Source: Dysgonomonas sp. Marseille-P4361
Lineage (GTDB): Bacteria > Bacteroidota > Bacteroidia > Bacteroidales > Dysgonomonadaceae
Direction: 5' to 3'
Assembly (NCBI RefSeq): GCF_900343125.1
Contig: NZ_OPYL01000002.1
Span: 1-64,000, forward strand
Length of the DNA: 64,000 nucleotides
Positions within the stretch are counted from its first letter, which is position 1. Each line of letters opens with the position of its first letter. The notes beneath the pieces were generated by a model. The model saw nothing but the letters and a program-made list of their open reading frames with translations. It searched no databases and had not been told where the DNA came from. Of the stretch, positions 1 to 62,621 are shown one piece after another. Position numbers and translations under genes: made by a program.

Positions 1-323
1 AGCTACTGGTAAAAGCATTGTGTTTAAAATCAGCTATTAACTGATCAATATTATTCATCTCTTTTCGTCGATGCTCATTAAGTATTTTTTTCAGGTATAA
101 AATCTTATTCTTTAATATAGCATTGAGCTGATATAGGTAGTTTTTTCTTTCCAAGGAGAAGTTTCTCAAAACTATGCGTGAATTTTCATCATCCCATTCT
201 TCCTGCATTAATTTTAGTCCGGTGGCAACCTGACGCGTCTGACGTTTATGATAAATTCGGAGACTGAGAAAACCTTCTTCTTTGTTTTTTTTTTGATGGT
301 CGGAATACTATACGGATACTCAT
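1..323 (-). pseudogene. Tyrosine recombinase (integrase) N-terminus, partial at window edge and frameshifted
   Basis: Read from the minus strand, bases 284 to 1 stay open and encode the arm-type DNA-binding start of a Bacteroidota tyrosine recombinase. The recognisable stretch is EGFLSLRIYHKRQ, then a conserved-looking GLKLMQEEWDDEN, then a basic helical segment that runs off the window. The catalytic domain is not in view. The natural start is ATG at 323, which begins MSIRIVFRPSKK, but a run of ten A (plus-strand T at 285-294) puts it one base out of frame with the rest. With nine A the two parts join into a typical integrase N-terminus. The downstream frame has a TAG at 308-310 and no ATG before the conserved part. 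Either the gene is broken, the transcript slips on the A run, or the base count is a sequencing error. The family call is fairly secure; function is uncertain. Confidence 0.75.
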
Positions 324-779
324 AGGTATGTTTTTTAGGTTAAAAAATAAGAGACAAAAATAGGACAAAAAAACGATGCTCTCTTAATATAAAAGAGACT
401 TATGGATTGATCCACTTATCCTAAAATAATGTCTGTGTAGTAGTTGCAACTTTTAGAAGAATTTAGAATTCTATTTGAATGATAAGTTAAATGTTAGGAT
501 AATTTTGTAATTATTTGGTTTATATGTGTTTGATGAATGAGTAGATTTTGTATTTTAACAGTTAGATATGTTTGTTCACTATATAATACTTAACATCTTC
601 TTTATTTGTAGTTTTCTTTTTTATAGACTAAAGTTTGCAGTATATTATCATATTCAAATATATGCGTCTGTTTTGAGATATAGGTGTAAAGACGATATAT
701 ACAGGGTGTTGAGATGGTTGGTTTTTAGTTAATATCCTGTAAGTAGGGGTTCCTAGTATGCGAAAGCATTTTGTTTTTG
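324..779. other. Non-coding stretch between integrase fragment and tRNA-Arg
   Basis: No credible gene lies here on either strand. The stretch is AT-rich. A TATTTTTG box (minus strand, 355-362) sits a suitable distance before the ATG at 323 and may be the integrase promoter -7 element, but no matching -33 box is visible. The part next to the tRNA would hold the attachment junction of an integrated element. Its core cannot be identified without the other end. Confidence 0.5.
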
Positions 780-17247: not shown

Positions 17248-17610
17248 ATGAAAAAGCTGACACAAAAAGAAGAGGAGATTTTAGGTTATTTCTGGGCACA
17301 TGGTCCCATGTTTGTTCGCGACCTGTTGGAATTGCAAGACGAGCCAAAGCCTCATTACAACACTCTTTCTACTATCGTTCGCACATTGGAAGAAAAAGGA
17401 TATATAGGCTATAAGCAATATGGAAATACCTACCAGTATTATGCTTTGGTGTCGAAAGAGGAATATGAAAAAAGTACATTGACCTCCGTTGTCGACAGGT
17501 ATTTCGGAAACTCATACACTCGTGTAGTCTCTACGTTGATAGAAGAAGAGAAGCTGTCGATAGAAGAATTGCAAGAGTTGATACATCAAATAAAGAATAA
17601 GGGTAAATAA
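17248..17610 (+). CDS. blaI: BlaI/MecI-family transcriptional repressor
   Basis: 120 residues: a winged-helix domain from the start (LTQKEEEILGYFWAHGPMFV, then HYNTLSTIVRTLEEKGYIGY as recognition helix and wing) and a C-terminal helical dimerisation part (LIEEEKLSIEELQELIHQI). BlaI/MecI proteins dimerise on palindromic operators and are cut or released when a membrane M56 peptidase senses its signal. The M56 gene follows after 11 bases, and the palindromic operator lies in the promoter. No beta-lactamase gene is in the window, so the regulon and signal are unknown; the pair may respond to other envelope stress. The symbol names the family only. Confidence 0.9.
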   Translation: MKKLTQKEEEILGYFWAHGPMFVRDLLELQDEPKPHYNTLSTIVRTLEEKGYIGYKQYGNTYQYYALVSKEEYEKSTLTSVVDRYFGNSYTRVVSTLIEEEKLSIEELQELIHQIKNKGK

Positions 17611-17621
17611 AACACTACGCG

Positions 17622-19292
17622 ATGGATGCCTTTCTAATCTATTCATTAAAGCTGGCTGTTTTTCTCACAGTCCTTTACATCTGTGTCAAAGCTTTCTTGT
17701 CTCGCGAAACGTTCTTTAGTTTCAATCGCTGGGTATTACTACTTGGTGTAGGAGTTTGCTTGTTGTTGCCTTTGTTGAAAGTGACAGTAAGTGAAAAACT
17801 GGCTGCTCTCTTGCCTAGCGCTCTTGTCGAAAAATATTTCGCAGAAGAGGCTCAAGAAGAAGCGATTGCAGATTCTTATGCCTACTCCGAAACAATAACT
17901 ACAGAGTACATGGCAGATGTTGCAGAGACTTCGTTAGTAGATATTAGCCTTAGTCAGGTGTTGCTGATTATTTACCTTGTTGGTCTTTTTGTAAATCTGT
18001 TTCTGCTGGGTCGATCAGCTTATCTGATGTTTCGCTTAATAAGAACTAACCCCAAGCAAGATTATAAAGGATATAAATTAGTCCTGGTCAAGGATCGCAT
18101 AGTGCCATTTAGTTGGGGACAGTATATTGTTATTTCTGTTAGTGATTTTAAAGACAATCCGGATGAAATTTTGACACACGAAATCGCGCATATCGCGCAT
18201 CGTCACTCGTTGGATATAATTTTCATGGAATGTGTGCTGTTGTTGCAATGGTTCAATCCTGCTGCATGGCTTCTGAAAAGAGAATTGAAAGATATGCACG
18301 AATATCAGGCCGATATGAGTGTTTTAGAATCTGGTATCGATACAACCAAATATCAACTATTATTAGTGAAAAAAGCCGTTGGCGCAAGCTCCTACACTCT
18401 AGCCAACAGCTTCAATCACAGTAAAATTAAAAAGCGAATTACTATGATGTTAAAAGAAAAATCAAGCAAATGGGCACGGTTGAAGCTCTTATTGTTGCTC
18501 CCGTTAGGCGCACTCACAGTGTTTGCCTTTGCCCGTCCCGAAGCGAATGAACTAGCAAGCTCATCCGCTGATTACGAAAGTACAATTAATTTTGAAGAAA
18601 ACGAAATTGTACAATCTCAGATGCAAAATGATAATTCCGAAAAGGGAATGGTGGTATACATAAATACAGAGAATAAAAGAAACCTACTTTACTATCCGAT
18701 AGCCTATGATGAGGCTAAAGAAGGCGAAAAGCCAATGCATGACAAATTTGTGAAATACATGGTGGGCAATAAAGTATATACACGTGAAGGTTTTGAAGAA
18801 TTGATAAAAGGGAAAATGTATTTCAAAACAGAGACAAATATAAAGTCGAAAGATAATGTTGTTCTCGAATTTCATTGTATCACTCAGAAAAGCTTGAAAA
18901 CTCCTGTTTTGTGTATGGTGAAAATAGAAGATGAGACTCCATTTATCCCTCCGGCATTCACAAAGGATATGGAACCAATACTTACCTACGAAATAACAAT
19001 GAGGAATAAAGATAATAAACCAAATAATTCCGAAAAGAAAATCGTTAAGTTTACTCGTGTGGGAAGTGACGGAGAGGTGCTATTTACCTATCCCGCATTT
19101 TATGACGAATCAAAAGAGGGAGAGGCTCCTAAACCGGACGATTTTGTAAAGTATGTAGTAAAAGGCAAAGAATATACCCGAAATGAGTTTGAAAAACTAG
19201 TTAATGATAAAGAATTTATCGAAAATAAAGAGGATATTAATCCCACTGAAAAGGATATTCTAGAATTTCATTGTATTACGCAAAAAGCTTGA
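17622..19292 (+). CDS. M56 (BlaR1/MecR1-like) membrane metallopeptidase, C-terminus cut by a frameshift
   Basis: 556 residues as read. N-terminal membrane helices lie at about 4-24, 37-55 and 111-133, with a further one near 285-303. The cytoplasmic zinc-peptidase motif HEIAH (His186, Glu187, His190) is followed by a downstream Glu-containing DMHEYQADM segment. This is the sensor protease partner of BlaI. The extracytoplasmic part is not a penicillin-binding domain. Instead it carries two copies (about 340-440 and 455-556) of a domain with the shared segments FVKYxVxxKxYTRExFEELI and LEFHCITQK. The second copy stops at TGA 19290-19292, because one A is missing from the run at 19282-19286 compared with copy one. 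The displaced rest is listed separately. The peptidase part is intact. Confidence 0.85.
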   Translation: MDAFLIYSLKLAVFLTVLYICVKAFLSRETFFSFNRWVLLLGVGVCLLLPLLKVTVSEKLAALLPSALVEKYFAEEAQEEAIADSYAYSETITTEYMADVAETSLVDISLSQVLLIIYLVGLFVNLFLLGRSAYLMFRLIRTNPKQDYKGYKLVLVKDRIVPFSWGQYIVISVSDFKDNPDEILTHEIAHIAHRHSLDIIFMECVLLLQWFNPAAWLLKRELKDMHEYQADMSVLESGIDTTKYQLLLVKKAVGASSYTLANSFNHSKIKKRITMMLKEKSSKWARLKLLLLLPLGALTVFAFARPEANELASSSADYESTINFEENEIVQSQMQNDNSEKGMVVYINTENKRNLLYYPIAYDEAKEGEKPMHDKFVKYMVGNKVYTREGFEELIKGKMYFKTETNIKSKDNVVLEFHCITQKSLKTPVLCMVKIEDETPFIPPAFTKDMEPILTYEITMRNKDNKPNNSEKKIVKFTRVGSDGEVLFTYPAFYDESKEGEAPKPDDFVKYVVKGKEYTRNEFEKLVNDKEFIENKEDINPTEKDILEFHCITQKA

Positions 19293-21432: not shown

Positions 21433-22596
21433 TTATTCCAAACCCAGAGTCATTTTGCTGAGCTGAATTTCGCTCACATCGCCCGTATGTTTTCCTGCAA
21501 CGTCAGACAGTTTCACAGCCTTAAGAAACTCTGTATCTTTTTTATGCGCTTTAATGTCTGTCAGCTTTATTACCATATTCAGAGCTTTTACACCCACATC
21601 GTTCGAGAAGAAAGTACCTATTCCGTAGGTGTCGTGGATGCGACCGCCAATATGGTCTTTGATCGCCTTGATGGTTTCTATGTTGAGCGAGTCGCTGAAT
21701 ACGATTGTTTTCGAGATTGGCTCTATGCGGTTTTTTTCGTAAAACTCGATTGTTTTATCGGCAAAGCTAAGCGGATCGCCACTGTCGTGACGTACACCAT
21801 CGAAAAGTTTTGCTTGCTTTAGGCTGAACGAGTTGAAGAACGAATCGGTAGTATAAGTGTCGGTAAGTGCAATCCCCAGACTGCCATCGTAGACATCTAC
21901 CCACGCTTCCAGTGCTTTCATATTTGCCGAGCGATAGCCGAACAATGCGCCATGAAACATAAACCATTCGTGAGGCATAGTGCCTATCGGTGTAGTGTCG
22001 TACTTCATAGCGAGGTACATATTGCTTGTCCCTTTGAAGCAATCGCCGGCATTGGTATGCAATGCGCCTATTACAGTGTCTTGTACATCAAACGAGAAGC
22101 GGCGGCGTGTTCCAAACTCAGAGAAGTCTGCTTGCAGATCTTTCAGTGCAATAGCTTTTGCTACAGCTTTTTCTTCCACCAGTTGAGGCTCGGCACCCAT
22201 CATCTTGAAGTATAGTTCAGATATAATAGCCATCAATGGCACTTCCCAAAGGATGGTTCTGTACCAATAACCTTCTATTACGACAGACAAGTCGCCTCCG
22301 TTTTGGGTGATGGTCACCTCTTCGGGGTCGTAGGTGAATCCCATTAGGAAATCGACAAAAACAGGATCGAAGAAATAGCATTTTTTCTTCATGAATTTTT
22401 TCTCCTCTTTCGTCATGCGGAGTTTAGCCATCTGATTCACTTCCTCTCGCATCCGTTCGGCAAATCCTTCGGGAAACTGTGTTCCTCCACGGTTGGTGAA
22501 TGCATATTTTACATAAGCCCAAGGGTAAAGCTTTTGTATGGCAAGCATTACCGAGAACTTGTACATATCGTTGTCTGTAAAGTGTTTTATTATCAT
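21433..22596 (-). CDS. pncB: Nicotinate phosphoribosyltransferase
   Basis: 387 residues. PncB joins nicotinate to PRPP to give nicotinate mononucleotide in NAD salvage. It opens with FTDNDMYKFSVMLAIQKLYP and carries the substrate and phosphohistidine region (TPIGTMPHEWFMFHGALFGY), GTRRRFSFDVQ and VRHDSGDPLSFADK for phosphoribosyl binding. Length and motifs are those of the bacterial type-1 enzyme. It is monocistronic, with the next gene on the same strand far upstream. No consensus promoter is visible before it. Confidence 0.95.
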   Translation of the reverse strand: MIIKHFTDNDMYKFSVMLAIQKLYPWAYVKYAFTNRGGTQFPEGFAERMREEVNQMAKLRMTKEEKKFMKKKCYFFDPVFVDFLMGFTYDPEEVTITQNGGDLSVVIEGYWYRTILWEVPLMAIISELYFKMMGAEPQLVEEKAVAKAIALKDLQADFSEFGTRRRFSFDVQDTVIGALHTNAGDCFKGTSNMYLAMKYDTTPIGTMPHEWFMFHGALFGYRSANMKALEAWVDVYDGSLGIALTDTYTTDSFFNSFSLKQAKLFDGVRHDSGDPLSFADKTIEFYEKNRIEPISKTIVFSDSLNIETIKAIKDHIGGRIHDTYGIGTFFSNDVGVKALNMVIKLTDIKAHKKDTEFLKAVKLSDVAGKHTGDVSEIQLSKMTLGLE

Positions 22597-22610
22597 ATCG
22601 TTTGTCTCTG

Positions 22611-22664
22611 TTTTGTATTATTTATTTAAACGTTGTTTTTTGTATTATTGTTTATTTATACGTT
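22611..22664. repeat. Short imperfect direct repeat upstream of pncB
   Basis: Two head-to-tail copies, 22611-22634 and 22638-22664, share TTTTGTATTATT and TTTATTTAAACGTT or TTTATTTATACGTT. The second copy has three extra bases. They lie in the pncB upstream region. Confidence 0.5.
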
Positions 22665-22684
22665 CATATCTTCTTTGTTTGCTT

Positions 22685-23082
22685 ATTTTGGCATTGCTGT
22701 CTAGTTTATTTTTTATTTTGTCTTGATACAAAACGAAACAAAAAATCAAGGCTATAAGTCTCGCAGACTCACCAGCTGCTCAGATGGCTAAACAAAATAA
22801 ACTTGCCCTAAGGGGCTTCGAACAGAATTTTGTTTTACGCCTCTTTCGCAGGGTGTGTTCCCTGCTGCTACTTAGATGCCGTATCCGCAATGCGACAAAA
22901 CAGAATCCTTGTTAAGCGTCAGTTATCCGTGCATCTGTTTCGCAGGCGGGTACCTGACCGATGCAGGCGGATAAAAAAGCAAATGGGCGATAGCCGTGTA
23001 TTTGCTTTATCCGGCAAGTCGATGACAGGTCGCCGAGGAATGCAGCACTAGCCTTTTGATTCGTTTTGGGCAATGCCAAAAT
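22685..23082. repeat. 398-bp structured intergenic element with long terminal inverted repeats
   Basis: The right end, 23049-23082, is a 34-base sequence whose reverse complement is found at the left end in three blocks: ATTTTGGCATTGC (22685-22697), CAAAACGAA (22729-22737) and TCAAGGCTA (22746-22754), separated by AT-rich insertions. Between the ends are hairpins: AGTCT/AGACT (22757-22769), GCCC/GGGC (22805-22816), GCAGGG/CCCTGC (22848-22865), CAGG/CCTG (22943-22956), and a long one at about 22968-23013 (CGGATAAA...AGCAAAT with ATTTGCTTTATCCG). Two hairpins are preceded by the same TTTCGCAGG (22844, 22938). It is clearly richer in GC than the flanks and has no credible reading frame. It could be a MITE-like element or a large structured RNA; I cannot name a family. 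Confidence 0.7.
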
Positions 23083-23114
23083 GAATGTTAATCCTCCAAA
23101 AAATCAATTAAGAT

Positions 23115-24305
23115 TTAAAGCGCTCTTTTAATCTTATCCAAGTTGCACATGATGTTTGCCGGAGGGCGTTTTGCGTCCAATTCCAGCTTCATGTAATCCA
23201 TATAGGGCGCAATATGGTCAAAAAACTTGTAATATCCAGCACACAGATAATTAATTTTTTCGCCATCGGCTGTAACTGCTATCCTGTTTTTGGGACATTC
23301 GCCATTGCAGGCAAACTTATAGTTGCATTGGTGGCATTGCTGCGATAAGCCTTTCGATTTATCCATGCCAAAGTCGAGTTGCTTGGATGAATACATCATC
23401 TGTGTGAGTGTTTTTTCTCGGATGTTTCCCAATTTATATTCGGGTGAGACGAAATGATCGCAGGCATATACATCGCCGTTAAACTCCATCACTCCTGCAT
23501 GTCCGCAGTTTTCGGCAAAGATGCATGTGCCGGGTTCGACCTTCATCCAGTTGGCAAGTGCGGCATCAAAATACTGGATAAAGTAATTGCCAATATCTTG
23601 TTTTACCCATTCGTTGAAAATGGCGATGAGAAAATCTCCCCATTTTTCGGGCGACACACTCCATTCGGTCACATCTCCGTTCGGATAGCGTTCGACAATG
23701 GGGGCAAACTGAATGAAATGCGAATCAATCTGTTTGAAGAAATTATAAAATTCGAGCGGATAATCGACGTTGTAATTGTTGACTACCCCCATTATGTTGT
23801 ATTCTACTCCATGCTTTCGGAGCAGATCGATGCCATGTATTACTTTGCCAAAAGTAGGCTCTCCGTTATTTGCTTTGCGGTATTTGTCGTGGAAGCGTTG
23901 AGTGCCATCGATGGAAATGCCTATTAGAAAATTGTTTTCTTTAAAGAATCGGCACCACTCGTCTGTCAACAGCGTTCCGTTGGTTTGTAGCGAATTTTCT
24001 ATCTGTCGTCCTCTGCCGTATCGTTGTTGCAGTGCAAGTGCTTTTTTGTAGAAACTGATATCTCGCAATAGGGGTTCTCCTCCATGCCAAGTGAATAATA
24101 CGAGAGCCATGGTTTGCGACTCTAGGTATTGTACGATGAATTTCTCCAGCAGTTCGTCGCTAAGCTTATAGTTGTGCTCTTGTTTGTACAGGTTTTTTGT
24201 ATCTAGGTAATAACAATAAGTACACTTGAGGTTGCAAGCAGCACCTATTGGTTTTAGCATCACATAGAGTGGTTTGGCAAAAGGGGCGATAGTGGTATTG
24301 TTCAT
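23115..24305 (-). CDS. Anaerobic sulfatase-maturating enzyme (radical SAM/SPASM)
   Basis: 396 residues. anSME enzymes use S-adenosylmethionine to oxidise the active-site Cys or Ser of sulfatases to formylglycine in the cytoplasm. The radical SAM cluster motif is Cys24-x3-Cys28-x2-Cys31 in ACNLKCTYCYY. TWHGGEPLL and SLQTNGTLL follow. The SPASM region holds the auxiliary cluster cysteines (GTCIFAENCGHAG, ACDHF, QQCHQCNYKFACNGECPK). It sits 9 bases after the thioredoxin lipoprotein gene (24315-25427), and a serine-type sulfatase lies 2 kb upstream on the same strand. That sulfatase is a natural substrate. Confidence 0.94.
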   Translation of the reverse strand: MNNTTIAPFAKPLYVMLKPIGAACNLKCTYCYYLDTKNLYKQEHNYKLSDELLEKFIVQYLESQTMALVLFTWHGGEPLLRDISFYKKALALQQRYGRGRQIENSLQTNGTLLTDEWCRFFKENNFLIGISIDGTQRFHDKYRKANNGEPTFGKVIHGIDLLRKHGVEYNIMGVVNNYNVDYPLEFYNFFKQIDSHFIQFAPIVERYPNGDVTEWSVSPEKWGDFLIAIFNEWVKQDIGNYFIQYFDAALANWMKVEPGTCIFAENCGHAGVMEFNGDVYACDHFVSPEYKLGNIREKTLTQMMYSSKQLDFGMDKSKGLSQQCHQCNYKFACNGECPKNRIAVTADGEKINYLCAGYYKFFDHIAPYMDYMKLELDAKRPPANIMCNLDKIKRAL

Positions 24306-62409: not shown

Positions 62410-62540
62410 TTAAGTAATAAACTATTTCGTACAATGACAAACAATGGTCATTATACAGTTGTTAAACAAAAAAGGGGTTTTTGATAAGAAATTTCCCGAA
62501 ATGAAAATATATGCTTGCGCGCGATTTGCATAATTTCTTT

Positions 62541-62612
62541 TCCCTACGCCGGCATTACCCGGATCAGGTTTAATGGGTGTGATCTCAGCCCGTTATATTA
62601 AGGCACCCCTAA
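62541..62612 (-). promoter_or_regulatory. TPP (thiamine pyrophosphate) riboswitch
   Basis: On the minus strand the leader reads AGGGGTGCC, then GGGCTGAGATCACACCC, then ACCTGATCCGGGTAATGCCGG and CGTAGGGA. These are the THI-box core (CUGAGA and ACCUGAUCCGGGUAAUGCCGG-type segments), and the paired ends AGGGG and CCCTA close P1. Bound TPP would turn the operon off. It is followed by the receptor gene. Confidence 0.95.
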
Positions 62613-62621
62613 GACTTGGGA

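Follow-up and report, generated by a model that had tools for sequence, protein, structure and literature searches.

A probable MITE-like element of Dysgonomonas built from two inverted, strand-polarised modules

An intergenic segment of the window, a 64,000-nucleotide stretch of contig NZ_OPYL01000002.1 from Dysgonomonas sp. Marseille-P4361, is very probably a decayed, non-autonomous, MITE-like transposable element of Dysgonomonas. It is composed of two homologous, structured modules of ~160 nt that lie in inverted orientation around a 45-nt centre (covariance model R1, Table 1). Its insertion site would be the gap separating an anSME-like radical SAM gene from a gene for nicotinate phosphoribosyltransferase, and its relatives appear to move by transposition at inverted ~17-bp ends (TGCSAATCAGTAGTTGA), with the mobilising transposase presumably acting in trans. 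The modules may serve as a signal that becomes active upon exposure of one strand, with one module per strand so that both directions would be covered. They might prime or protect single-stranded DNA, or they might function within transcripts that run through the element either way.

Overall architecture of the element

The left neighbour of the element is the nicotinate phosphoribosyltransferase gene (pncB, 21433-22596, minus strand), and the right neighbour is a radical SAM/SPASM gene (23115-24305, minus strand, Pfam domains), which we take to be anSME-like from its domains and a nearby sulfatase-looking ORF. From its two module matches, the element spans about 22712-23085, within an insert of about 480 bp. 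The only ORF of at least 60 aa that it contains (73 aa, 22830-23051, plus strand) has no Pfam match, nor does any other ORF inside it, in keeping with the gene-less character first attributed to it by a sequence-only reading. Rfam scans of the window gave no match inside the element, and a tRNA/tmRNA scan of the window found one tRNA, outside the element, and none within it. The same reading held that the composition differs from that of the flanks. This is true of the AT-rich spacers on either side, which have a G+C content of 24% compared with 45.7% in 22712-23085 and 39.2% in the window, but not of the two neighbouring genes (44.2 and 42.7%), which are near the value of the element. Elsewhere in the window, a TPP riboswitch is found at 62523-62620 on the minus strand (Rfam, 70 bits), and two adjacent ORFs at 17248-19292 on the plus strand presumably encode, by their look, a BlaI-type repressor and an M56-type membrane peptidase.

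Each module consists of a long irregular hairpin followed by a terminal hairpin, and the two modules carry different end types (Table 1). Model R1 was built from a 57-copy alignment (A1) of right-hand, B-type modules. For this alignment, 60 B-type copies were extracted and 57 were used, the exclusions being three copies with an N, an insertion and a deletion, respectively; seven further B-type ends that lack the outer-stem motif were excluded before extraction. Because the right module of the window is itself a row of the model alignment, its match to R1 is by construction; that of the left module is not.

Several details of the sequence-only reading stand. The reverse complement of 23049-23082 recurs at the left end as ATTTTGGCATTGC (22685), CAAAACGAA (22729) and ATCAAGGCTA (22745), a repeated sequence that precedes hairpins, TTTCGCAGG, is present at 22844 and 22938, and the stretch 22968-23013 is indeed a near-perfect hairpin. 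Its view of a left arm split by AT-rich insertions is better replaced by a different end type (C), and the true inverted pair is formed not by 34-base ends but by the whole modules, 22712-22882 on the minus strand and 22928-23085 on the plus strand. The C-type end on the left is paralogous to the B-type end on the right, and the C type also occurs in relatives. Only the 13-mer that lies further out, at 22685-22697, resembles the leftover of a B-type end that was replaced.

Table 1 Features of the element and positions of the hairpin slot in pig microviruses
Feature	Position	Strand	Basis
Inserted DNA, approximate extent	22630-23111		Alignment with G007, in which the orthologous site is empty
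Putative B-type end remnant, 13 nt, ATTTTGGCATTGC	22685-22697		Identical to part of the B-type end read inward
Left module, C-type end	22712-22882	- (outward)	R1, 76.8 bits, E 1.9e-17
C-type end, two overlapping stems: CTTGAT/ATCAAG; TTTCGTTTTG/CAAAATAAA	22712-22756	-	Sequence
Centre between the modules, 45 nt	22883-22927		Gap between the two R1 matches
Right module, B-type end	22928-23085	+ (outward)	R1, 153.5 bits, E 1.4e-36
Inner stem of the right module, variable (helix 7)	22968-23013	+	Changes on both sides in 6 of 8 pairs
B-type end: AGCC, spacer, hairpin TTCGTTTTGG-GCAATG-CCAAAATGAA	23050-23085	+	Sequence; helix 8; phage matches
Hairpin slot, L216	567-666		
Hairpin slot, L215	1490-1545		
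Hairpin slot, L221	1-60		
Hairpin slot, L222	about 320-370		

The two overlapping stems of the C-type end make it a candidate H-type pseudoknot. This assignment is supported by 25 C-type ends, in which the mean longest match between the loop and the upstream sequence is 6.2, compared with 3.5 and 3.6 in controls. A pseudoknot was also considered for the other end types and is unsupported both in B-type ends (58 ends, 3.4 compared with 3.3 and 3.5) and in the ends labelled A by the script (ten ends, 3.8 compared with 3.75 and 3.4); for 77 ends of no class, the longest run is 3.6 compared with 3.6 and 3.2. At four other loci (L029, L051, L074 and L096), the B-type end hairpin is interrupted by a common sequence, CCAACCAACG..., or a close variant of it, which is perhaps a secondary insertion or an end swap.

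Distribution of copies

Modules were found with R1, among the matches listed, in 17 of the 25 genus genomes including the source genome, and in none of the remaining eight. On the same basis, the number of modules per genome is at least 116 in G019 (a lower bound, since 118 candidates were scored per genome), 82 in G012, 67 in G003, 58 in G016 and 41 each in G020 and G024; the source genome (3.3 Mb, 13 contigs) has two, which form a single copy of the element. A DNA search of 61 genomes, with ten candidates scored per genome, gave matches in 25 including the source genome, among the matches listed: 16 of the 24 other genus members, 2 of 12 from other genera of the family and 6 of 24 from other families of the order, with several of the matches outside the genus covering only 30-50 bases. 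When named genomes were scanned for the exact B-type end, 37 loci were obtained, 30 from Dysgonomonas, six from Prevotella (sp. 10(H) and isolate TD116_bin30) and one from a Bacteroidia MAG. Across a sample of the phylum (completeness of at least 90%, strict filters, ten scored candidates per genome), R1 matched 5 of 296 genomes, including the source genome. Inverted module pairs are also present in G128 and G029 (R1), and a plasmid search gave no match.

A repeat of ~330 bp in another genome of the phylum (G231) is present in three copies (L206, L210 and L211) with one module each; as judged by eye, its terminal inverted repeat, CTGACATTACCCATGTAAT, is of another kind. The modules are thus not tied to a single type of end. 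Among open-licence papers, no description of this repeat family was noticed, and a string search of such papers with five end sequences returned one unrelated paper.

Terminal repeats, target duplication and the empty site

The copies in G003, G012, G016, G020 and G024 are flanked by inverted ~17-bp repeats (TGCSAATCAGTAGTTGA). Relative to a reversed-pattern control, the terminal inverted repeat (TIR) pattern is found 53 to 2 times in G012, 21 to 1 in G024 and 0 to 1 in the source genome. With a looser pattern, and among the matches listed, the counts are 39 to 7 in G003, 64 to 8 in G016, 57 to 5 in G020, 37 to 13 in G029 and 12 to 5 in G011; by the same count, G018 shows no enrichment (6 to 5). 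The TIR pattern scan detects no recognisable terminal repeat around the window copy, and in the elements of G005, G007 and G017, which do have modules, such repeats are recognisable in few cases or not at all. Two-ended relatives and TIR pairs are 41 to 791 bp long, and some lack modules. At L191 and L195, the same TIRs enclose AT-rich stretches of unrelated filler without a module. Therefore, the modules are unnecessary for movement, and terminal repeats of the TGCSAATCAGTAGTTGA type may mobilise other content too. Six elements of ~400 bp in G016 are mutually 89.1-96.5% identical. Across 20 stretches around end repeats in G012, nearly all TIR pairs lie between ORFs; the exceptions are a weak TIR-like match inside an ORF (L094:788) and a right end that overlaps one (L095).

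Outside the TIRs, the relatives have an AT-rich target duplication of 7 bp. This register was chosen, among many lengths and offsets and after some flanks had been seen by eye, on a first set of 35 TIR pairs that was left after duplicates were removed. Here, the flanks are 76.7% identical compared with 60.5% (sd 2.2) when mispaired, with 0 of 500 shuffles as high, and eight pairs have exact 7-bp duplications compared with 1.0 expected. The register was then applied as it stood to a second set of 17 pairs (17 of 20 loci used), which comes from other sites and partly from the same genomes. For this set, the identity is 75.6% compared with 60.4% when mispaired (0 of 1000 shuffles), and five exact duplications are found compared with 0.25 expected. 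The best candidate for a duplication at the window copy itself, TATTTAA/GATTTAA, matches by eye at 6 of 7 positions and is within chance.

Among 17 other loci with the anSME-like gene, pncB was found beside it within the fetched flank in one, L112 of G007, and this site is empty. The gap between the two genes is about 40 bp compared with 518 bp in the window, and the neighbours are 87% (pncB) and 80% (anSME) identical to those of the window. A global alignment with L112 shows homology that ends near 22630 and restarts near 23121. The window element is therefore an insertion, unless it was lost from G007, the only relative that shows the empty site. With the TIRs, 7-bp duplications, empty site and copy numbers of relatives, the earlier suggestion of a MITE is upheld for the relatives; the window copy has no recognisable TIR. 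This copy is also the only one found in its genome, and both features fit the older insertion that had been proposed. The sequence-only reading was to fail if no other copy and no compensatory base changes existed, and both were found.

No TIR pair 0.8-5 kb apart that encloses an ORF of at least 200 aa was found in 197 loci (at least 1500 bases each, most of them short), nor does any TIR pair enclose such an ORF in the 20 stretches around end repeats in G012. A 221-aa ORF in L104 was considered as an autonomous partner and rejected, as it lies outside any TIR pair.

Covariation and strand polarity of the modules

The RNA fold of 22680-23086 has a z-score of -6.0 on the plus strand and -4.7 on the minus strand, and 0 of 100 shuffles are as stable on either strand. 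For the right module, 48 pairs were predicted and three doubtful ones were excluded. Within the 57-copy alignment, 95.6% of cells pair, and changes on both sides are seen in 32 of the 45 pairs. The covariation score is 0.300, compared with 0.135 when shuffled and at most 0.070 with partners slid; because the structure was derived from this very alignment and its copies share ancestry, weight is given to the size of the gap and not to a probability.

To assign a strand, each half was folded with G.U pairs forbidden, and single mismatches inside helices were counted. On the outward strand, G.T outnumbers A.C by 36 to 8 in the B half (65 copies), 17 to 3 in the A half (46 copies) and 8 to 3 in the C half (10 copies), with other mismatches making up the larger part of the totals (90 of 134, 48 of 68 and 16 of 27, respectively). 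When the opposite strand is folded, the counts are reversed (4 to 46, 4 to 19 and 1 to 5). Alignment cells show the same bias on the outward strand: 89 G.U cells (23 pairs) compared with 17 A.C cells (11 pairs) in B, and 21 (10 pairs) compared with 3 (3 pairs) in A. When the structure is instead predicted from the inward strand, the G.U and A.C counts are 12 and 14 in B, which is no excess, and 3 and 16 in A. As the halves are homologous and their copies not independent, some of this asymmetry may have been inherited. Even so, each half seems built to fold on its outward strand, with folding that looks strand-specific and mirrored, which suggests selection on that strand in both halves.

These results bear on the idea, also put forward from the sequence, of a structured RNA closed by the end repeats. 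The massive compensatory change speaks for structure, but the halves prefer opposite strands. An RNA that runs through the element would consequently read one half wrongly, which argues against a single closed RNA; the opposite polarisation of the halves points instead to a direction-independent signal.

Such a signal could still act as RNA, a reading that is compatible with a transposon and that we consider less likely than not. A transcript running either way would end with a correctly oriented module, which would protect its 3′ end or insulate neighbouring genes. Heavy compensatory change and tolerance of G.U pairs are typical of RNA, the copies are mostly intergenic, and an inverted pair would give an effect that is independent of the direction of insertion. 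Against this reading, no promoter-like or terminator-like site is predicted in 22500-23200, and 16 loci with copies or partial matches gave no Rfam match at E up to 1.

The B-type end hairpin in Microviridae

Strand-specific folding is likewise expected of a single-strand origin or ssi signal, and RNA is also compatible with it. A comparison of a Dysgonomonas element with 50,697 phage records gave three matches with E <0.001, all of them to Microviridae and all to the B-type end. When the phage form of the motif was used as the query, the five best matches were all Microviridae (E 7e-13 to 3e-5), and the next had an E of 0.2. Two of these five records are from pig faeces, two are marked porcine and one is from a sea squirt gut; four of the five are marked unverified. 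The sequence of the motif stem varies between the phages while its pairing is kept.

Microviridae package the gene-sense strand and need a start for the complementary strand. We infer that the B-type motif could be the start site of the complementary strand in these phages. More broadly, the modules may be single-stranded-DNA signals whose outward strand would fold on exposure and attract host factors for priming or protection. We regard this reading, which is also compatible with a transposon, as rather unlikely. Exposure would occur in a transposition intermediate, conjugative transfer, a replication fork or phage infection, and the single-stranded-DNA phages would carry the end hairpin for the same use. 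The strand-specific, mirrored fold agrees with it, as each DNA strand has one properly folding module. In each of the five Microviridae records, the B-type motif lies on the gene-sense strand, and four of the five matches have no annotated feature beneath them; that in MG945191, in contrast, overlaps the edge of a feature. The related phages L221 and L222 keep the preceding ATACTATGAAAAACAC and then have another sequence in place of the motif, by eye another hairpin, but L220, the closest by replication protein, has neither the motif nor the preceding bases, in a stretch that ends at the end of the record. At L216, a site at 567-590 that resembles an intrinsic terminator separates the pilot gene from the motif, but three more terminator-like sites lie just past the motif, two of them on the other strand. 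A related replication protein is present in 1244 records compared with five for the motif, which thus occurs in a small minority. Furthermore, the virion strand has the sense of mRNA in these phages, so that RNA is also possible, and the 7-bp duplication suggests ordinary double-strand transposition.

The pig microviruses share a non-coding slot with ATACTATGAAAAACAC (ATACCTATGAAAAACAC in L216) followed by a hairpin that differs between relatives (Table 1), as if the slot hairpins were swapped between them. Besides the Microviridae, 29 Flavobacterium phages have one short match to the B-type end at E 0.5, which was taken as chance. The A-type and C-type ends gave E 0.1 or worse in phage records except for MT839992 (L219:240-330), an unannotated 5.4-kb faecal scaffold with a C-type-like end and a long stem (E 0.01). 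Scans of IMG/VR gave no match, but searches there with microvirus replication proteins were also without relatives, so that this lack of matches carries no information.

We consider it improbable that the ~160-nt strand-polarised fold is a widespread single-stranded-DNA signal of Bacteroidota, with its terminal hairpin being the start of the complementary strand in some gut-associated Microviridae. If true, one host factor would link a transposon family and single-stranded-DNA phages. The shared hairpin is a testable candidate for the second-strand start of these phages and, conversely, for what the repeats recruit.

Discussion

The MITE-like element described here belongs to a large repeat family, apparently unnamed, that is interspersed in Dysgonomonas genomes and has recognisable relatives in other Bacteroidota. 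BIMEs contain inverted REP pairs, and an inverted pair of hairpin modules with strand polarity and a mostly intergenic location could be taken for a giant BIME, that is, REP-like palindromes spread on single-stranded DNA by a RAYT (Y1) transposase. This origin is very improbable: Y1_Tnp is found in only 10 of the 25 genus genomes, its presence does not track the number of modules, and it is absent from the module-rich G005, G007, G017 and G020; moreover, terminal repeats together with a 7-bp duplication are not typical of RAYT. That the terminal repeats are instead invertase sites bounding invertible segments is hardly credible: the inverted ~17-bp repeats do enclose segments that differ greatly in content (L190, L191 and L195), but a 7-bp direct duplication lies outside them in two sets of pairs and the orthologous site in G007 has no insert at all.

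Among known systems, the family most resembles the prokaryotic MITEs, and a review (PMC10969869) describes QMITE2, BrickBuilt and MITECca01 as short, gene-less, intergenic repeats with TIRs and direct repeats, the latter waning with age, and with transcripts that are predicted to fold. Like these, the Dysgonomonas relatives are gene-less and intergenic, occur in many copies and have TIRs and a direct duplication. Unlike in MITEs, their core is an inverted pair of covarying, strand-polarised modules, and modules of this type also occur elsewhere in the phylum with other ends. A parental IS was not found in the 197 loci scanned, most of them short.

Cardinium belongs to the Bacteroidota as well. 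Its MITECca01 is described as a gene-less repeat of ~240 bp with inverted repeats that derives from an IS982-family element and is reported to be unique to its strain (PMC9769881). As far as that description goes, it is likewise gene-less, bounded by inverted repeats and from Bacteroidota, and is set apart by its IS982 origin.

The BIME and REP sequences are palindromic repeats outside genes (PMC3733652). They measure 20-40 bp, compared with a Dysgonomonas module of ~160 nt, which is accompanied by TIRs and a 7-bp duplication. The absence of the Y1 transposase from several carriers is a further difference. Finally, rolling-circle plasmids and ICEBs1 carry single-strand origins (PMC4595007), which are strand-specific, folded DNA signals on mobile elements as well. 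This is a resemblance only and, unlike these origins, the Dysgonomonas element has two copies that face opposite ways.
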